From positions 38,930 to 102,929 of the forward strand of contig MU616581.1 in the NCBI GenBank assembly GCA_025201705.1: a DNA stretch of 64,000 nucleotides, given 5' to 3'. Positions within the stretch are counted from its first letter, which is position 1, and each line of letters starts with the position of its first letter. The notes beneath the pieces were generated by a model that saw only the letters and a list, made by a program, of their open reading frames with translations, made no database searches and had not been told where the DNA came from. Source of the stretch: Dissophora ornata. Lineage: Eukaryota; Mortierellomycota; Mortierellomycetes; Mortierellales; Mortierellaceae. Made by a program: the position numbers and the translations under genes. This document shows, in pieces, positions 28,633 to 64,000 of this stretch.

Positions 28633-29490
28633 TTACTGGCATTTTCGCCCTGCTCCAACTTGATTCAGGCCCTTGACTTCTAGCAAGGTGCGCTCCAGCC
28701 CCGCAATCGAGCTCTGAAAGTACTGAAGTGTACACTTTCTTCGTTTTATTGCCGCTGCCTCATGGAGAATCGACTTCATAAGATCCTGCAGCTTAGCCTC
28801 GCAGTCCTTGAACTTGAGTGCGTTCTCGGCGTCTCTTGCTACTCTTGCAGCCTCCTGTTGAACAGCCCTGGCCCTTTGGAGTTGAAGAGCGAGATGTGGT
28901 GATAATATTGCCTCCAAAGAGAATGTAGGACCGTTGTCATGGTTGATTGGTTCCAGAGGAAGAGTGAGATTTTCATCATAACAGATCTCCATATTACGAT
29001 AGATTCTGGAAACCAGATACATGTGCTTGCATGGCACCTTGTGTCGGATGTAACTTTCACAAGTACAGGAAAGGAGAACGGTACAATCCGAGTTTGCACT
29101 GATAGAATACTTCACATCAGGCGCAGTGAAAGAACTGACTGAGAACTACATCATAAAAGGCAGAAAAAAAGGTAAAGGCGAAGTTAGAAATAAGTTGGCC
29201 ATCAAATCGTAAAACAGGTTACATTGTACACTTTTAGGTACCTTTCTCTCCTCAATCAATTCAGAGGCCATGACCTTAGCTTTTATGCTCTTGTCATAGT
29301 CCGAGAGCGGCATGGACTGCAATCCATTAACGATCTTGAAGTGACTGGTCCTGAAATCGATATCGACCACTCCCTGCAGCAAGCAGATCAAATCATCAGC
29401 GCGCAAATCACGCTCGTATCCCAAGTGTTGCCTCTTCAAAGTCTTGTGCCAGCTTTCCACCAAGTTGTTGGTGTTTGTATGCTGATAGTT
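28633..29490 (-). mobile_element. MULE-type transposase fragment 1 (catalytic Glu region + SWIM zinc finger)
   Basis: Two exons, 29490-29242 and 29145-28633, joined by a 95-nt intron (GTACCT...ATGTAG) in phase 0. The first begins at a splice acceptor with NYQHTNTNNLVESWHKTLK, the segment that carries the third acidic residue in Mutator-like transposases. The second has a SWIM finger, CTC...VPCKH (C-x-C-xn-C-x-H), and a helical C-terminus. Upstream exons with the first two catalytic Asp residues are missing: the next bases on this strand run into the flank of the endonuclease gene. It is therefore a 5'-truncated remnant, probably not able to move by itself. Confidence 0.7.
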
Positions 29491-29794: not shown

Positions 29795-32700
29795 ATGGGT
29801 TTGAATGGATGGTTCCCATTCATACGACGCATGGGCTACAACCCTGTTCCGTTGTACCAGTCGGTCGTCGCCAACATCGCCACCAACAGACGTCGAAGAC
29901 TCGATGTCCTCGGAACATGCTACTGTGCCATTCGCAACAGTTATTCCAACACTCCACAAGATGTCGCGCACCGTATGCTCGAGCAGGAGGTCAGCCGGTT
30001 TGGGTCTTCTCTTGATATGACTCTCTATATCGACGGCTATCAGGCAGTGGAAAAGAGTGACACGGCCGCCGAGCGAGAAGGACTACGGAAGAGAGCACTA
30101 GAGCGCACCACCACAGCCCTTGGCACCCTCGAGTCCCGTCTGGACCAAGATCTCCGTGTCAGAAAACGTCATTTTGTTGATGTTCGATCGGGCCTGGCGT
30201 CGTCTTTTTACTGGTCTCGAGAAAGTCGATTGGAATTTGCACAGTATATGCAGGACGCGGGCTGGACTGTCAAAGTTGCCGACACTGAGGCTGACTTGGC
30301 CATTGCGATCGATGCAGAGCCAAACGACATTACCATCTCTGGTGACTCGGATATGATTGCGTACGCCTCCATCCGAACTCTATGGCGTCCCGTATCCGGA
30401 GGTTGCATCCTTGTGTACACCGTTCAAGATCTTTTGAGAGCTCTTGATGTCACTCGTTCCCAGCTGACTGCTCTGGCGGTTGTGAGTCGCAACGACTATA
30501 ACAAGAATATTCGCTCCCTCGGCCCCGCGACTAATTTTTCTATTATCAAGTCTATCAAGCGTGCAGGTAATGATCAAATGGGAAATTTTTATCTCTGGGT
30601 ATTCTTGACCGCCTTTCCATTTATGAAATTCTGACTGTGCTAAATATATTACATTATCTAATAGACCCGAAGGACATCGTGTTGGCCTACTATCTGACAG
30701 CCGGGTTGTCTCAAAAAACCCCAACAGTCAGGACTTTGCCATGTCGATCAAAGTCTTTGTGGATCTTCAACAAACCAGGGTTGAAATTGACGGATCCTAG
30801 CCTGGTTCGCAGATCCTGTTCGAGCAACTACAAGGCCGATTTCAGGATTTCTGCACGCGATATGACCAATATAAACAGAGTAAATCGCAGGGAGTTCAGC
30901 CCAGGTAACTATTTATTGTTGGGCCTATCTAAATCAAGCTATATATGTGAATTGTATCTGATCATTTTTGTATTATTTTAAAAAATTGATAGGTCCTCCG
31001 ACGATACTATCGCACGATTGCGAGTTCCAAGATCTTTTAATCGGTATCGGTCTATCGAATCCCCAGCACCGGTTTCCAAGGACTCTGAAAACTTCCCACA
31101 GCAGCCACCCACTGCTGGTTTGGAGCCTACTAGTCCGTCTTCTTCGGATCCGCAAGATCAGAGTCATCCACCATTAACCAGAACACGGATACCTCGACAT
31201 CGTCAGCGATTTTCCTTCAAGGAGCGACAAGGGAAGGTGACTCATGAGCCCCCACTCAAGGCCAAGCAATTGGTTTGGAAACCACCCAAAAAGGCTCCCG
31301 AGTCCCCCAACGACACCTCCACCAGCAGCACCAAGAAGGACAGCAAAAAGAAGGATGCGAAGGCTAAGAAGACTCGGGAAGAGCCGTCACCCGATAAGGG
31401 ATCGAGCTCGTACGCAGAGAAGGGCAAGAAAAGTCTCCTGAGGTCTCTCGGCTGGCACCACCCCATATCATCACTGGAAGTCGGTACTTTGAAGATCAAC
31501 ATCGAACGAGCCTTGTCGGATTGGCCTGATCTACAGCTCGAGGTGATCAAGTGTATCAAAGAGGGTTCCGCGCTTGCAGTGGATATCAAGAGGAAGGCTC
31601 AAGGCCTCATTGGCGGATATCTGGAGAAGTTACGGACTCGTATGAAGGCGGTGGAGGAGTCAAAGCGACGGGACTTGATGGAAGCAGGCAAGACCATGTC
31701 GGAGTCGGAGCGGTTGAAGGCACGGCAGGATGCGGTGACGAAGGATGGGCGAGAGACTCTGGATTATCTGTGTGGGAGGGTTGAGCCCAAGGTCGATAGG
31801 GATGATCACGACGACGTCGACGATAGCCAGGAGGATTCAAACGACTTGGATACAGAATGGAAGGGTAACAAACACCTCTAGTTCCTTCTGTCTTTCCTGA
31901 CCTACTTGTACTCGAGGAACCTTCCAGACAAGAACTCGAAAATCGGAAAAGCCGTCGACACTTTCATCAACATCTTGGTAGGGCTTCAACTCTTCGACAT
32001 TTGTAGGAATCGGAACGAGCTCAACGAAAGAATGCTATTCACAGCGAAGTCTCTGGTGCGGTCCGTCGCTGGACAACTTTCGGTGGAATTGAAGAAGATG
32101 TACAAAAATGGCACCCAGCTTTTGTACGATCAGGTAAGGATACAAGAGCCGTTGACAAGAATGGACCGAAGTTTATTGCTACAAAAATATGTAACTAATG
32201 CTTCTTAACTTTTTTATTATAGGTCAAGGCTTTGAAGGACAAGGGACGACTGGAGGACCACACCGATATCCGGATTCAGGAAAACATCTCGGCTGCGGAA
32301 AACTACATTGCCCTCAACGAGTTGATACCGAGTAGCTGGCGACTCGTTCCCATCACCTCCTTGCAGCAACCGTTTGTGACATATTCGGAGCGAGAGCTGG
32401 CTCTTTTCTTTTGGAAGCGACCCTTGTTGAAGCAGAGACTGGTCGAGCTGGCTCTCTCGGACGAGGACAGTACCATCCTCACTTCTACTATAGATCTCGA
32501 GGCGTGGATCGGGGGGAGAGAGCCCGGGTTTATCATCAAGAGCTTTATCTCAGACATTGATCCTGTTGGACTCTCGAACCGTCAAAAGCGCAAGGCTGGT
32601 AATCGCGGGGCCATCAAGCTGCTCTCCTTGGATCAGATTCAGAATCATTTGCAGTTGGTCGAGGAGACAAAGCCAAAGGACTATCACCGTAGCGGCTACA

Positions 32701-33802
32701 TCCCGCAAGGATCAATACGAACGGACGGGTTCCTGGTCCAGATTTTGGCGTTCAAGATGCGCGAGAGACAGGACGCTAGGTTCAAAAGACTAGCCGAGGA
32801 GGATATGCCCCCAAGACTAACTACAACCGTTGCTGGAGTTGACTATTTCCTTCCGGAGATCCGGAACGTTATCAGGAGCGAGCAGGATATCAAGGAGCTT
32901 TGGCCGGGAAAAGACGTGGATAGGATGAAGATCCTGACTTTGGATGGAGGGCAGGCATGTGTTGTTGGCGCGTTCGCACACCTACCCAATGGCTTGGCCG
33001 AGACTGGCAATGGTAAGGAGAAGGCAGAGGGGGGGTCTTGCATGGACGGAATCATCACCACCAACCAGGAATCGACCGGCGTCGCCAACCAGGGGTCAGT
33101 AACCCTGGATCCAGTGCCCCCATCAACCTCCACCTCCACCTCCGCGCAAGCTCCAGTAATGGATCCGCTCGTGACACCATCTAGACCTGCCTACTATAAC
33201 TTGGCGGTGAAGCAAAAGGCGGTGTACCAGCCAACGTTTCGCTTTAGGAGATGGCTTGAGAACGAGAAGTTGACTATCCCAGAAGGCGAAGAGGTGTCCA
33301 TTACGGACGTCGAGACCCGCCTGCCACCCCTTCGAGGACCAGGCGCGAGCGTTGTTGACTATGTGAGAGAGCTGGAGCAGGTCGAGCAGCGCCTGAAAAA
33401 GTTCTATGCTGGGGACGACCATCGGTATAAGAGGCATCATTGGGACATGAAGCGGGCGAGGCAGGCAGAGTACCAAACCGTGGCGGAGAGACTGCTTGGG
33501 ATTGTTGGTGGTAGTCTAGGCCGGCGCGTGGAAGACAACAAGGACACTGACCCGGTCCTGATTGGCATTGGTCTAGGACAGTTCTCGAGCAAGTCTAGGC
33601 TCTCGTCCCTGCACTCAACTTTCCTGTCGTACTTCATCCAGAAGGTAAGTGTCAGTTGCAGAAAGCCTGTTTTATCAACACCTTGATACAAGGCACCATA
33701 AGTGAATGTTATTGATATGAAACAAACTAACATGATTATTTATTCACAATTTGCAGGCGCGCTCATTGGGATATGTTGTCGTGGGACTTAATGAGTTCTT
33801 GA
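29795..33802 (+). pseudogene. FEN1/XPG flap endonuclease fused to a TnpB/Fanzor-like RuvC half (broken)
   Basis: Five exons with canonical introns: 29795-30566, 30665-30904, 30993-32133, 32223-33644, 33757-~33802. The N-terminus is a FEN1/XPG nuclease: start MGLNGWFPFIRRMGYN, then LYIDGYQAVEKSDTAAER, a metal-binding core ADTEADLAIA ... ITISGDSDMIAY, and the H3TH-type ALDVTRSQLTALAVVSRNDY. A charged Lys/Ser linker and a helical region follow. The C-terminal half has GSIRTDGFLVQ, a RuvC-I-like KILTLDGGQACVVGAF and, at the end, SSLHSTFLSYFIQK-ARSLGYVVVGLNEF, the layout just before the zinc ribbon of TnpB/Fanzor proteins. Lesions: frame change near 30695-30700, in-frame TAG at 30798-30800 and 31879-31881, and loss of the 3' end at ~33802, where antisense transposase sequence begins. 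The FEN1 part is sure; the RuvC assignment rests on motif order and the copy at 63799-64000. Confidence 0.65.
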
Positions 33803-33959
33803 TCTTGAGGTAGGTGACTCGAAAGTCCGTATTTACGATATCGTGTAGTAAGTAGATAAGGTAATCTGCGCGAACATTGCGCTCATGACCCAGATGGACT
33901 TTCTTGAGCGTTTTGTGCCAGCTTTCCACAAGATTATTGGTGTCCACGTGCTGGTAGTT
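33800..33959 (-). mobile_element. MULE-type transposase fragment 2
   Basis: Reads NYQHVDTNNLVESWHKTLKK, matching fragment 1 at the same exon start (acceptor ...CACACAG), then DFRVTYLKI. Homology to fragment 1 ends at KI, at the point where the sense strand becomes the endonuclease gene (NEF). The junction near 33800 is thus an insertion or recombination break. An upstream exon may lie around 34056-34180, but its splice phase does not fit, so I leave it out. Divergence from fragment 1 (KKVHLGHERN versus KRQHLGYERD) shows two separate copies. Confidence 0.65.
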
Positions 33960-34704
33960 CTGTGTGGAGAACGTGAAATAGAAAATGAATTAGGTTTTTA
34001 GGTTTTTAGGTTTCGAAATCTTTGCAGGTACCATCTCCTTGTACAAATATCTTACCCCTCGCCCTCGCCTTTTGCCCATTCGCCAACTGCAGCCTCAAGC
34101 CATTCATCTTGATCACTTGTTTTCGCAGCAGTGGCATCATGAATTACACAACAAGACACGCCAGGTTACAAGTTGAGGTATACGTGTGTGTAGTACGAGA
34201 AGAATTGAAAAGAAATAGTATTGTGTGGCCGCTTTCAAACGAAGGGGCGTGGACATCGTCATTTTATTCTCGTTGTTCCCGAACAGTAAGAAATGAGCGA
34301 TCCCTGTCGCTAACACCTCTCACAATCATAATTATCATGAGTATCTTAGGCTAGAGGAAGATTCATCGATCTTCTCGGACTTATGTGGCATGAGTATGGC
34401 TGCAAACATCCAAACCTTTTCTGCTCCACGTAATATTGTTGCTATTACAGCTGCCGATATGATGCGAGCATAGTTGCCAGTATTGTATTTATCTCGCAAA
34501 TATTGAACATTTTCAATCTACACTATCTATGACACCAAGAGGCGCAAGTCCACCCATGTGTGTACTGTATTTCGCAGGCAGGCCAAAACACGATACATAA
34601 TATTTATTTTCATATAGACAACTGTAGTCGTTGACAAACACGTTGTTGGATATAATAGATGCGCCAGGCTGCCTTTCTCCGTGACGACCTTTGCGCCCCT
34701 CCCC
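33960..34704. other. Intergenic, transposon-derived and 3' flank of the NLR gene
   Basis: No supported gene. It contains a triple GGTTTTTA repeat at 33990-34011 and, at 34603-34608 on the minus strand, an AATAAA about 100 bases after the NLR stop codon. Confidence 0.45.
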
Positions 34705-37700
34705 TTAGTAGCTGTCTGGAGGAGCAGCTTCACCTAAGGCGCCCCGCTGCTTTAGCAGCTGCTTGTTCAGCCGACTTAGACCTTGCGCGTCTTGAATGGA
34801 TGTATCCATCAAAGTAAGCTCGGTTGCTGGAGATCTCCAATGTAACTGGGCGCGGTATTCGTCGTCCTCTTCAGTCACCTGCCACAGCCGAATTACCCCA
34901 TCCGCACATCCAGTCGCCAAGCAATTGTCGTCAGAAGTTACTTTCCAGTCGATGCCGTCGACCCAAGCGTGATTTTGAATTACCGCTCGACACTGACCCG
35001 AGGCAACATCCCAGAGCCGTGCTGTGTGGTCGTCACTGCCAGACGCAATTTGATCGCCTTTCGACGAATACACGACACTACAAACCACGTCGCTATGGCC
35101 GCTCAACATGTAACAACAGTCTCCGGTTGCAACGTCCCACAGCCGCAGTGTCTTGTCATAGCTTCCAGATACAATTTTATCTCCCTTTGGCGAATAGGCG
35201 ATGCCCGAAACCCGTTCGGTGTGTCCGATCAAGGTGCGGTGACAATCTCCGGTTTTGACATCCCATAGCCGCACTGTCATGTCGTCACTACCGGAAGCAA
35301 CATAATCACCTGTCGGAGAATACGCGACACTCCAAACATGCATGCTGTGGCCGCTCAAGATGCGGAGACAATCTCCTGTTGCAACATCCCACAGTCGTAC
35401 TGTCTTGTCCCAACTTCCAGACGCAATCTGACCACTATTCGGAGAATATGCGACTATCCACACATTCTCGCCATGGCCTTTCAAGGTGCGCAGGCAATCC
35501 CCTGTTTCGGCATCCCAAAGCCGTACCGTCATGTCATCATTCCCAGTGGCAACCTGGTCGCCATTTGGTGAATACGCAACGCTTAAAGCAGTCCCGCTGT
35601 GGCCGCTTAAGGAACGACGGCACTCTCCTGTTTCAACATCCCAGAACCTCACTGTCTTGTCACTACTCCCAGACACAAGCTGACCGTACTTTGGCGCATA
35701 TGCAATGGTAGATACCCTGTCGCTATGGGTGGTTGGTATGTGATGGGTGGGGACTGTCTCAACATCCCACAGTCGCACAGTGTTGTCTGAACTGCCGGAC
35801 GCAATCTGATATCCTTTTGACGAATGCGCAACACTTGAAACACCATCGGTGTGGCCGCTCAAAGTTTGGCGACAATCTCCTGTTGCAACATCCCAGAGCC
35901 GCACTGTCTTGTCCCTACTCCCTGATGCAATCTGATCGCCTTCTGGCGAATACACAATACTGGAAACACTGTCGCTATGGCCGTTCAGTGTGTGGCGGCA
36001 ATCTCCAGTTCCAACATCCCACAGCCGTACTGTCGTATCCCTGCTCCCTGACGCAATCTGGTCGCCTTTTGGAGAATATAGGACACTCCAGACACTCCCG
36101 GTATGGCCGATCAACTCGTGGAGGCAATCTCCTGTTCTAACGTCCCATAGTCTTACTGTCGCATCCCAACTTCCAGATGCAATCCGATCCCCTTCTGGTG
36201 AGTACACAACGCTGGAGACACTCTCGCTATGGCCGTTCAAGGTTTGACAGCAAACTCCGGTTTCAGTGTCCCACAACCGCACTGTCTTGTCCCAACCGCC
36301 AGACACAATCTGGCCACCTTTTGGCGAATATGCAACACTCGAAACCCAACGTACATGACCGCTCAAGGTGTGACTGCAACATCCTGATTGGACATCCCAC
36401 AGTCGTATTGTCTTGTCTCTACTGGCAGACACAATCTGACCACCGTCTGGCGAATACACGATGCCGCACACCGGGTCGCTGTGGCCGCTCAAGATGTGGA
36501 GACAGTCTCCAGTCGCAACATCCCAGAGTCGCACTGTGTTGTCCCAACTGCCAGACGCAATCCGATCGCCTTTTGGCGAATATACAACAATCGAAACTTG
36601 CTTGCTGTGGCCGATCAAGGTCTTCGCGTTTTCCCATTTCGAGGTAGTATAGATGCTTATATTGCCACTGTCAAGACCGACGGCGAATGTGTTTCCATCT
36701 GGCGAATATGCGCAGGAGAGCAGTTTGGTCTCTTCTTTGAGAAATGGCAACTCACCAAACTGCACGTCTTTCATTTGCGCCTCGCTCAGATTAGCACCGC
36801 GAAGAGACACACTGCGAAGAATAACCTTCCTCATATCTGCGCCTTGTAGCTTTGCATATTCGAATACACCGTGACTCAGATCCGCTCTTGGGATCTGGAT
36901 ACCTCGCAAATCTACTCCATTAAATTGCACTCCTGCCCTGACCAAAATCGTGATTGCATTGGCTGCCGCCTTGCTCGCCACCTTGCGTGCTGCCTTGCTT
37001 GCCGTAGAAGTATTCGTCTTTTCTGTCTTCGACCGCTCAATGACTGCCAGTAGCTGTTTCTTGAAAAGGCCTTTTTGTTGGACACGTTCTACTAAGAATC
37101 GCAGAATTGATGACTCGCCAACAAGATTCTTCCGACCCAATGGAGAGTCAAGTATCGGTTTTTCAAGGGTGTTGACTACTTCCTGCAAATCTTTATCACT
37201 CTCAACGCTGGAATCCGAACTGACGCTCCGTCGGCGTGACTCCATTGCTGTTGGATCCAGGGTACTTGTTTCATCATTTCCTCCGCTGTTTGGTTCAAAT
37301 ACTGCTCGCGCCAGAGAGTACTCAAGGAGTGACCGATGGAGGAAACGGTATTGGTTGCCACTGCGTGTCAGAGGACAGGCTTCGCGCAAAAGATTTCTCT
37401 CGCTTTCTTGGCTGAAGAATGCTTCCTTCCATGTTCCTCGATCCCGAATGGGCAAGTATTCGACTACTGAGTTACCCTCATGTTTCTCATAGACAGCCGT
37501 AGCCAATTCTTTCAAAAACGTAATGCCTTGCTGTATAAAGCCTTCATCAGACAAGCTGGAAAACGCTTTCCTGTCTTGGGCGCTCACATTCTCGACAAGC
37601 CGCAATTTGCCACGCTCCAACCATTGCTCCACGAATTGGTCATACAGTGCCACCATCGTCACACGAGCCGCCGAGAGGTTTTGTCCTGGATCCACCATTC

Positions 37701-40618
37701 GCGGCAATACATCAAGGGACAGAGTTAATAGGAACGGATTCGTCACCAAGTCTTTCAAGCCGTGGATCCGATTAAGCACCTTCAAGTAGTCCTCGACCTT
37801 CCATTTCGGATGTTTCATTGACACAAATTGCTTGACGTAGTCCTCAATCTGCTCCCTGGAGAATGGTGCAATGGAAGCCTCTTGAAATAAGGGTGACTCT
37901 GCTTGGCGATTACGATCCCCTGGCTGGAAAAGGTCCCGATAGTCAGAGCCAAGATATTCACTGCGACAACCGATCACCATTTGTGAGCGCCATTCTCCAA
38001 ATTGGTTCAGCCGGTTGCTCATGTACAAGTTGTGCGTCTGCCGACTCTCATCATACCCGTCGCAAATTAAAATGAACTCGCGGTGTCTCTTCAACTCTCG
38101 GATTTGTTCGTCGGTGAACCCTTCGATCTGTAGTTGTTTTGATATCAGATCGCGCTCAGGGTTTTGAATTGCTGCCAAGGTGATAAATAAAGGGATTGGG
38201 CCATCCTGTTTCTTGTATTTGATCCACAATTCATATTCGAGCTCCAGGTTAAATGTAGATTTCCCCGCACCAGAATCGCCTAGCAGCAGAAACACCTTTT
38301 GCTCACTACCAAGGAACTCCTTGACCTTATCCATCAAAGGGAATAACTGATCAGCGCGAGCTTTTAGGTTAGCCTTGGCCTGTGGAGAAATATACACGGC
38401 TTTGTCTCTCCTCCCTAGCCGACGCCCTTTGAGCTCGCGCAGACTGCCTTCAACATCAACCTTGTTTTGAACGCGGTCCAGCAGTGATGACGAAAGTGGC
38501 GGATTTAAAGTGGTCTTCAGTGGATGTGAACGTGGGTTCTCGTCTTGACAAGCCCGATAAAGCGCTTGTTTCTTGGCATCTCCATCCTTTTCAAGATCCT
38601 GTAGTAGGGGTTTGGCAGCTACAGCATGTTGATGAGTTGATCCTGTTAGTACTTCAGTACTACGATACTTGTAATGATTCTTGTAATGTTGTCTGTGGTT
38701 ATCGACAGCATCATCGATTCTCACTTAACCATCCCGTCCTCTTACCTTGCACCGTACTTCCAGGTTGATCAGCCAGTTGCATAAGAATGCTGACGATCAA
38801 TTTCTTAATATTGGCTTGCTGACCCCATACTGCGTCGTTTTGATACATCTCTCCTAGAAGCGCAACAGCGCTTTTGCGAGACTCGTCATCGCACTCTGGA
38901 TTTGCGGCCATCTCCCCTAGCCGTTGGCATACTCCCCACTGAAACGCTGGATCTCGTCTGCATGGCGCTTCACGGATGAGCTTCTCGAACTCGATGAGCT
39001 GGCCATTCCGAAGGAGGACATCTGCACCGCGCAATGCTGGATACCACGCACGTTTTCGGCTAAAGCTGAGGCCCTCGTTGAGACAGTCCCAAAATTGCTT
39101 CCCGCTCTTGGCCAGAGTGCTCACATCATCATATGCGTTTTTGACCAATGTGAAGACCTCCGATGCTCCAGCCAGTCCTTCCTGAATACGACTCAAGCCT
39201 TCCACGAGCTTATTGAGATCCAGGCCTTTCACAGCACTGACAAGCCCTGAAATTCCTTTGACTACTTTTCCTGACCGCCGCAATGTCGCTTTCAATGGTG
39301 TTTCATCGTCTGGGACGTAGAGCAATGCTTGAGAGGCGTAAGCGGCTTGGTAGATCAAATATGGGTCAGTATTGGATGCCAGTCCCTTCAAATATGTAGC
39401 GAGAGGCGCATGGAGTTCTTTACGGTCAAGGCCCTCGACCTTGCTGTCAGCCATGGCATCCAAGACATGTGACACCGCTATTGTCAACTGGTTGATGTAA
39501 TCTGGAGATTGGAGGTGAGTGTCTTGTAAGCGCTCACTAGTGAGCTCTAATATCTTGACCAAGTTGTCGGCATTGAGGTAGCCCGGACTAGCGCTTTGGA
39601 CCAGTTGTGCCAATCCTTTGAGTAGATTGGGATCCAGGAGTTTAGATTGTTCGATTCCATGGAACAATAATTGAAGTATTTGTTGAAGATCTTCTCTCTC
39701 AAGAACCGGGACAATGCTCGTGACTTCAGCGACAGCCCTCGCGCCTTTGAGTTTCTCGTGTGCGAATTCTCTAATCAGGTTGGTCGCCAGCTCCTTCAAC
39801 CTCTCCTGTTCTTCTGCATCATGTCCAATTTCTTTTAACCAGGTGCGTTCGGACTGGTCGAGGGATTCCTCAAGCGATTGGGATGATCGTAAAAGGTCAA
39901 GACTGTGAACGAGCTGGGTTACACTCGAGAGGCGCTCTTGTACTCTCGGCAATTCGTTTATGTCAGGAGGCTGATGCATGTCTCTTTCAAAGACATGTGA
40001 AGGGGTTGGTGCGATGTCGCTGCTGGGATTGTCCTGGACCGGAGGCGGGAGGGGATGGGATTCCTGGGTCGAAGGTGGAAGGGGATGGGATAATAGGTGA
40101 ATGACAGAAAGGTTCCCAACTAGATCTGCTGCCGGATCTGCTGCGGGAGGCGATTCAACGCTGCGGGAATGAGTGGATGATTGACTTTGCACCTTGATAT
40201 ACCCTCTGTAATGTATTGATTATATAGGATCGTAGTAGAGTTAGATTAAGAGCTCTACTTCACGCTTTAGATCCTAAAACAAACTGTTGTGATCTACTTA
40301 CCCCCAGTCTTCTGCTTTCTGGTATCTTGCCTTTGTCTTGGAGTGATACCCGAAGCTACCCATGAGCTCGCCAATTTCGAAATAGATGCCGGCAATCTTA
40401 TTACGCAGAGTTTGATCTTCAGTATGCGAGGATGACATAAGATCCTTTTTCACAGATCTTCTTATGCGAGAGATGGCGCTTTCTGCATCCTTGCAAAACG
40501 GCAGAGCCTTTTCTGAAATCTTCGCTCTGCGTGCGTTCTCCAGATGGACAGTAGCCAAATCCAGGGCCTCCTGTGGCGTGAGAACACTTCTCCACGGAGA
40601 GAGTGGGTTGCTGAGCAT
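34705..40618 (-). CDS. NLR-like protein: helical N-terminus, NACHT, pentapeptide linker, WD40 array
   Basis: Exons 40618-40302, 40205-38746 and 38642-34705, with introns of 96 and 103 nt, give 1904 residues. The N-terminal ~130 residues are TPR-like (YQKAEDW); a long helical region follows. The NACHT NTPase has Walker A GDSGAGKS (714-721) and Walker B ILICDGYDE (about 783-791). Next is a pentapeptide-repeat stretch (ADLSHGVFEYAKLQGADMRK, LRGANLSEAQ), then a degenerate blade and 14 clear WD40 repeats of ~42 residues (GHSDPVCGIVYSPDG...LWDV), enough for two propellers. Proteins of this plan act as fungal STAND/NLR sensors: the repeats bind a ligand and NACHT drives oligomerisation. The acceptor of intron 2 (CTAACAG) was chosen because it is the one that keeps phase. 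No known effector domain (HET, Goodbye, patatin) is recognised at the N-terminus. Confidence 0.85.
34870..36690. repeat. 126-bp tandem repeats coding the WD40 array
   Basis: Coding-strand units of about 126 bases (42 codons) follow one another with high base identity; phrases such as TGGCCGCTCAA and CAATCTCC recur once per unit. The unit ending near 35760 (coding VETVPTHHIPTTHSD) is degenerate. Confidence 0.8.
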
Positions 40619-63798: not shown

Positions 63799-64000
63799 CT
63801 ATGATGATGGCATAAACTTGGCCGGTCGACACTGGTGTTGGATTTGCGACAGGCACACAGTCGCAATGTTCTCAGAGCCGACAATGTCCCGGTCAAAGTA
63901 CATCTGACAACTTCTGCAGTACTTTGACCGGCGCTTGTCGTTCTCCAGGAACGCCAAACACTGATCCCTGGGACACCGAGCACTCGTGTAGTACTCGTGC
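63799..64000 (-). CDS. TnpB/Fanzor-like RNA-guided nuclease, C-terminal 66 residues (5' partial)
   Basis: The gene enters from beyond the window. The visible part reads HEYYTSARCPRDQC, then KYCRSCQMYFDRDIVGSENI, and ends at TAG (63801-63799). This is the end of the TnpB/Fanzor fold: the E-Y-x-TS lead-in, a zinc ribbon with CP-x3-C and CRSC pairs, and the last RuvC motif with the catalytic Asp in FDRD, followed by the conserved Asn-containing helix (ENI). Fanzor proteins are eukaryotic TnpB relatives that cut DNA guided by an RNA encoded at the transposon end. No frameshift is visible in this piece. Whether the protein also carries the FEN1 half seen at 29.8 kb cannot be told here. Confidence 0.7.
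   Translation of the reverse strand, partial: HEYYTSARCPRDQCLAFLENDKRRSKYCRSCQMYFDRDIVGSENIATVCLSQIQHQCRPAKFMPSS

Follow-up and report, generated by a model that had tools for sequence, protein, structure and literature searches.

Can a flap endonuclease and an RNA-guided nuclease be parts of one protein chain? The question is raised by a locus in Dissophora ornata (contig MU616581.1), in a stretch of 64,000 nucleotides that we call the window. The remnant of a five-exon gene lies there at 29795-33813 on the forward strand, and it consists of an N-terminal nuclease of the FEN1/XPG/EXO1 type, a linker and a Fanzor1-type half. We believe that this remnant is very probably a pseudogene of a multicopy Mortierellaceae family, in which a single protein of about 1,150-1,350 aa joins an N-terminal FEN1/EXO1/XPG-type nuclease to a complete Fanzor1-type nuclease. 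Judged from predicted proteins, a Fanzor1-type nuclease bearing an N-terminal FEN1-type nuclease would appear to be new. The parts of the window copy, compared with other copies of the gene (L039 to L044), are as follows.

29795..30566, + strand: exon 1, FEN1/XPG-type nuclease core; open frame from ATG, with TEADLAIA, GDSDMIAY and NDY
30567..30664, + strand: intron 1 (GTAATG...TAG); position matches L039
30665..30904, + strand: exon 2, C-terminal portion of the FEN1 half, with a frame shift and a TAG at 30798-30800 (frame comparison with L041 and L039)
30905..30992, + strand: intron 2 (GTAACT...TAG), phase 2, between the halves; phase 2 in all six copies examined (L039, L040, L041, L042, L043, L044)
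30993..32133, + strand: exon 3, linker and start of the Fanzor half, with a TAG at 31879-31881 (tblastn to L039, L041 and others); fully coding in L039
32134..32222, + strand: intron 3 (GTAAGG...TAG); position matches L039
32223..33644, + strand: exon 4, Fanzor half with RuvC-I LTLDGGQ, Asp codon 32943-32945 (genome matches; predicted fold of homologue P0109)
33645..33756, + strand: intron 4 (GTAAGT...CAG); position matches L039
33757..33813, + strand: exon 5 remnant, ARSLGYVVVGLNEF to 33798 (Glu codon 33793-33795), then the tail LILR and a stop; exon 5 is whole in L039 and L044

The exons, GT-AG introns and motifs named in the original prediction (TEADLAIA, GDSDMIAY, LTLDGGQ and FIQK, read across intron 4 into ARSLGYVVVGLNEF) were all found where it had placed them. 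Its five-exon layout was borne out, with the correction that exons 2 and 3 carry a frame shift and stop codons. The TAG in exon 2 lies in the frame that fits the relatives. The TAG in exon 3 counts as an in-frame stop because the intact relative L039 is coding there; a GT-AG pair at 31865-31927 was rejected as an intron, as L039 codes through the matching place (GDRHMQFLESFLRYLYSGNYP). At the 3' end, homology stops at 33798 after LNEF and a short unrelated tail ends with a stop at 33811-33813. Thus, the zinc ribbon and RuvC-III are absent from the window copy. With these lesions and the loss of its 3' portion, the window copy is a dead pseudogene. Public annotation of the locus covers the C-terminal part only (P0145, EDD21DRAFT_79589, 526 aa). 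Exon 1 of the window scored 18 bits (E 0.004) against the XPG_I profile, under the cut-off of 24.9, and shares 40% identity with exon 1 of L039, 62% with that of L041 and 36% with that of L044.

Some relatives elsewhere have intact gene models. L039, on contig C298, has an uninterrupted five-exon gene model of 1178 aa, in which Pfam recognized Cas12f1-like_TNB (PF07282, 1.2e-12) at 1080-1142 and XPG_I (4.2e-5) at 163-236, the latter at 24.3 bits against the cut-off of 24.9. A 1300-aa model was obtained for L044 (C141), with splice sites picked by script. XPG_I exceeded its cut-off in protein P0099 (26.6 bits) and at loci C661, C298, C21 and C425; P0051 gave no match to this profile at E 0.01. 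When the Fanzor half of L039 was compared with 5.8 billion proteins, with 8000 candidates scored, 97 matches were obtained. Their named source organisms are genera that we take to be Mortierellaceae, Dissophora alone having been confirmed as such by look-up. Precomputed PF00867 and PF07282 domains occur together in P0006, P0014 and P0020, and P0066 and P0092 are labelled 'Rad2 nuclease' in the source database. A second protein search, represented here by the best 120 of 189 matches, some from sources without an organism name, contributed P0099 of Mortierella alpina (1148 aa, both domains, 13 member sequences). The original prediction of FEN1 and RuvC in one protein agrees with these results: predicted homologues combine FEN1, RuvC-I, the relocated glutamate, the zinc ribbon and RuvC-III, and full-length predicted proteins hold both halves, so that intact homologues are not always predicted as separate genes.

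A structure search with the whole protein recovered the FEN1/EXO1 fold and returned FEN1/EXO1/XPG/RAD2/GEN1 chains only, and the C-terminal half was therefore modelled separately, without FEN1. For this model, made from homologue P0109, the seven best structure matches were all Fanzor1 structures, and the fold spans the length of the half. The C-terminal half had been called TnpB/Fanzor-like, and a Fanzor fold, the RuvC-bearing fold that this call required, is indeed predicted. TnpB and Cas12 gave structural scores below those of PpFz and SpuFz; TnpB in place of Fanzor was set aside on the relocated glutamate and this ranking. The identity of the FEN1 half to FEN1/EXO1/XPG chains is about 16-20% in structural alignments. 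Sequence searches of solved structures gave a weak signal on the RuvC side for L039 (L79 at E 0.024) and no match for P0156; a profile from our alignment A3 matched L79 (4e-4) and LaTranC (4.5e-4) in the zinc-ribbon region only.

Catalytic residues were counted in alignments A1 (59 of the 97 proteins of the L039 search) and A3 (58 of 154 protein ids). Rows were picked partly for recognizable halves and gaps were ignored, so the counts describe the chosen rows. Both halves are present in 37 of the 59 A1 rows. Among these rows the FEN1 carboxylates, in human FEN1 numbering, are nearly invariant: D34 26/28, D86 33/33, E158 37/37, D179 35/37, D181 37/37 and D233 37/37; the E160 position holds Asp in 37/37. 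The Fanzor half is equally well kept, with the RuvC-I Asp in 36/36, the relocated glutamate in 30/31 and the RuvC-III Asp in 31/31. Mean identity is 39% among FEN1 halves and 47% among Fanzor halves. The relocated glutamate stands six residues before the first CxxC (NEYYTSKKCxxC), and the window copy keeps this Glu without the ribbon. Excerpts of PMC10711439 give the same six-residue spacing ahead of the zinc ribbon for the relocated RuvC glutamate of Fanzors. A Fanzor motif, D-X(125,275)-[TS][TS]-XX-C4 zinc finger-X(5,50)-RD, is given in part of PMC3627910; it is found in intact relatives and not in the window copy. The D-to-TS distance is 182-256 in 20 rows of plausible spacing; two more rows were misread from an early D.GQ match, and other rows lack some part of the pattern. 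RuvC-I itself is DGG in the window copy; most of the main-lineage rows read have DLG or DGG there, and P0032, P0046 and P0109 have DPG.

Comparison of L039 with L042 gave dN/dS values of 0.38 for exon 2, 0.34 for exon 3, 0.16 and 0.25 for exon 4, and 0.06 for exon 5, the last with one frame-breaking gap. For exon 4a the values were 0.23 with L019 and 0.45 with L025, a relic with 11 frame-breaking gaps.

Gene models, the phase of the introns and the reading frames all predict that the two halves lie on one mRNA. The junction intron, intron 2, has a phase 2 donor and a fitting acceptor in six copies. In L044, exon 3 must be spliced to, because a stop precedes it and no ATG stands before its FNRYRTID and RPRY. 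The linker is present in 36 of the 37 rows with both halves. Additionally, sequence identity in one half correlates with that in the other (r 0.68; 0 of 2000 permutations).

The fusion occurs beyond the main lineage. At 63.8 kb the window holds a second locus, which the original prediction had used in support of the RuvC assignment. It is the C-terminal end of a Fanzor, with zinc ribbon and RuvC-III, and belongs to a different lineage.

63805..63999, - strand: C-terminal 65 aa with the relocated Glu, zinc ribbon and RuvC-III of a second Fanzor lineage, ending at the contig end (PF07282, E 4.9e-7)

A relative of this piece on C134 (L088), at 77-85% identity, is preceded 2.8 kb upstream by a FEN1 frame and reads GIDPG at RuvC-I. 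A third lineage (C228, L089) has FEN1 and GIDPG too. A search with the joined L089 reading found ten proteins, from Mortierella alpina, Entomortierella, Modicella, Benniella and Linnemannia. FEN1 motifs are present in P0156, P0157, P0158 and P0161-P0164 and are partial or absent in P0155, P0159 and P0160; RuvC-I reads GIDPG in P0155-P0158, P0163 and P0164, and DLG in P0161 and P0162. Excerpts of PMC10711439 describe DPG as the near-exclusive form of RuvC-I in Fanzors. Because the fusion is present in at least three divergent lineages of one fungal family, it is probably old. In P0163 and P0164 of Linnemannia hyalina, a partial piggyBac-type transposase domain (PF13843, reaching position 109 of 349; 16 and 6 member sequences) precedes the FEN1 motifs and the DPG Fanzor; these could be genuine three-part proteins or misjoined gene models.

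Copies of the gene are abundant. Against the 31.4-Mb genome, exon 4 (474 aa) gave at least 103 matches, and for the FEN1 exon of L044 there were 48, the source locus being counted in each figure. The gene is thus not a chance reading of the letters. Merged by position, these give 69 Fanzor-half loci and 41 FEN1 loci. A Fanzor part lies downstream of 14 of the 41 FEN1 loci, on the same strand and within 6 kb, at a distance of 1358-1701 bases in 11. A hand-compiled tally of the 19 strongest FEN1 loci, those with an E of 1e-20 or lower and a match extending to residue 250 or beyond, found 13 linked to a Fanzor part, including C134 to the second lineage; of the other six, three lie no more than 2 kb from the end of a contig, C425 is a truncated relic, and C454 and C158 were unassigned.

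Short copies (C791, C231, C421, C14, C569 and C890) join the 5' leader of L039 straight to inner or 3' parts. By analogy, they resemble the internally deleted forms that mobile elements produce. In C791 the approximate ends are about 1.6 kb apart. A tail of about 100 bases 3' of the stop codon is conserved in several copies; the aligned tails are few and near-alike, unsuited to a covariation test, and we claim no structure for them. A perfect hairpin, GTGTGTT-CGCC-AACACAC, stands some 50-60 bases past the stop in C791 (L052), C824 (L042) and C298 (L039), and not in other copies; it is a possible element end or guide-RNA element. In L052, reverse strand, inverted repeats of 38 bases, 97% alike and 85 bases apart (about 755-792 and 878-915), lie in the C791 5' leader and occur also in C235. 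This pair looks like a small nested element. On C824 (L042, 1-2490), a Crypton-like tyrosine recombinase (NDC10_II, GCR1_C) directly precedes the FEN1-Fanzor copy that lacks exon 1. We rejected Crypton-type mobility, as the 34 match rows of the recombinase (several for C824, C443 and others) are not consistently beside FEN1-Fanzor copies, an adjacency judged from coordinates by reading; the C824 gene is taken as a nested neighbour.

Based on the predicted folds, the conserved catalytic residues, the joint inheritance of the halves and the many relics, we propose a model for the activity of the fusion. The Fanzor half would bind a guide RNA from its own element and cut a selected double-stranded site. 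The tethered FEN1 half would then strip 5' flaps or resect 5' ends where the break is staggered or a strand has been displaced. Repair would thereby be biased to copy the element into the cut site, or to retain it there. Processing of the guided cut by the FEN1 half had been suggested in the original prediction and is something we likewise infer; the guide RNA, the cutting, the order of the steps and the benefit to the element are inferred as well. To this mechanism we give slightly less than an even chance, and to the explanation as a whole, fusion identity together with a guided cut and FEN1 processing, an even one. More tentatively, the family may represent a self-spreading element with a single-chain, two-nuclease, RNA-guided machine of old origin, in which the tethered FEN1/EXO1 part steers insertion or restoration without a transposase.

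Several observations weigh against this reading. P0158, P0163 and P0164 carry Gln at the E158 position. Much of the main lineage has DLG or DGG at RuvC-I, not the usual Fanzor DPG. The dN/dS of FEN1 exon 1 is 0.60, in a sole comparison with a relic holding a stop. Of the 69 loci with a Fanzor half, 55 stand without a nearby partner, as do 27 of the 41 with a FEN1 match; many of these are fragmentary or lie at the end of a contig. L042 and C549 retain the remainder of the L039 type without exon 1, with similarity to L039 beginning near the end of that exon; we regard both as truncated. Between the approximate ends of C791 there are no repeats of 10 bases or more and one inverted repeat of 9 bases. 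Last, no transposase of their own was found for FEN1-Fanzor copies. PMC3627910, in part, describes Fanzor1 from transposons of several types, of which some do not encode a transposase. In this DPG lineage, Gln for E158 stands beside kept Fanzor motifs, and FEN1 catalysis may have been lost there.

Nucleases of the FEN1 family can act on 5' flaps that contain RNA. It is conceivable, if unlikely, that the FEN1 half acts on RNA or R-loops, trimming the guide RNA from the element transcript or clearing R-loops, while the Fanzor half alone takes the target DNA. The substrate range of the FEN1 family favours such a role, and the conserved 3' tail could encode a guide scaffold; against it, known Fanzors use a guide RNA without a FEN1 partner (PMC10432273, PMC11423790). 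Quite unlikely is a FEN1 half that serves chiefly as an anchor, recognizing DNA that is nicked, flapped or bent and so placing the Fanzor half, with catalysis secondary. The Gln of P0158, P0163 and P0164 would suit an anchor, whereas the near invariance of the FEN1 carboxylates in the main lineage argues against one. We consider it very unlikely that the family consists of host genes co-opted for genome defence or DNA repair, their mobility lost; the lack of a detected transposase and terminal repeats fits such genes, but dozens of decayed copies and the short copies with the 5' leader do not. The two-gene reading, considered because the junction of the halves is an intron, is the least probable of all: neighbouring FEN1-like and Fanzor genes that travel together and are fused only by gene prediction would agree with the in-frame stop that the unspliced junction donor yields in L039, L041, L042 and L043, with the in-frame ATG directly upstream of exon 3 in L039 and L042 and with the single-half loci of the genome, but the phase 2 intron in six of six copies, the linker in 36 of 37 proteins and the absence of an ATG ahead of the conserved start of exon 3 in L044 speak against them.

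Our preferred reading, a two-nuclease fusion, differs from known systems in several ways. Compared with Fanzor1 (PpFz1 of Parasitella parasitica, SpuFz1, GtFz1), the family adds an N-terminal FEN1 nuclease and a linker, and its main-lineage RuvC-I is mostly DLG or DGG rather than the DPG found in some members and in deep lineages. Compared with FEN1/EXO1/XPG (RAD2) nucleases, it shows low identity, Asp at the E160 position and fusion to an RNA-guided nuclease. Unlike the prokaryotic TnpB and Cas12, it is eukaryotic and intron-bearing, with a relocated glutamate and lower structural scores to them. Like the Fanzor-bearing eukaryotic transposons of Bao and Jurka (2013; PMC3627910, in part), of which some lack a transposase, it is repeated and carries a Fanzor gene; unlike them, it has no terminal inverted repeats of 10 bases or more at the approximate ends of C791. 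No description of a FEN1-Fanzor fusion was found in titles and abstracts of open-licence literature, a scope that leaves most subscription papers outside and does not prove priority. The word 'XPG' does not occur in the main text of PMC10711439, PMC10432273, PMC11423790 or PMC3627910, nor does 'FEN' in that of PMC3627910. PMC12719977, a review of large-cargo integration, contains 'Fanzor' and 'FEN1' once each, and 'TnpB' and 'flap endonuclease' co-occur in PMC11237433 and PMC12719977.

The role of Fanzors in the elements that carry them is an open question, and a fused enzyme for 5' flaps or 5' ends gives a direct hint of the relevant DNA intermediate. The fusion makes this question testable, one active site at a time, in a family that is multicopy and present in cultivable fungi. 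A natural RNA-guided nuclease with inbuilt flap or end processing may also inspire the design of editing tools with control over repair.

Two regions that share a transposase-like motif flank or overlap the window copy.

28633..29490, - strand: transposase-like frames near the 5' end, with a SWIM zinc finger (PF04434, E 1.9e-4, on 28636-29145) and the motif NLVESWHKTLK
33744..33989, - strand: second NLVESWHKTLK frame, overlapping the cut 3' end; motif by eye, no Pfam match

Farther along, at 34708-40192 on the reverse strand, a 1339-aa frame with many WD40 repeats and a by-eye P-loop (GDSGAGKST) stands beside a frame of ARM-like repeats. NLR-like genes adjoin the window remnant, and copy C450 (L047) is also near a WD40 frame. 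Elsewhere in the window, a forward-strand frame at 51513-52505 matches Arb1, the Argonaute siRNA chaperone subunit (PF09692, 2.7e-28), and another at 1933-3510 matches the HAD domain of Swiss Army Knife RNA repair proteins (PF10307, 3.7e-23).

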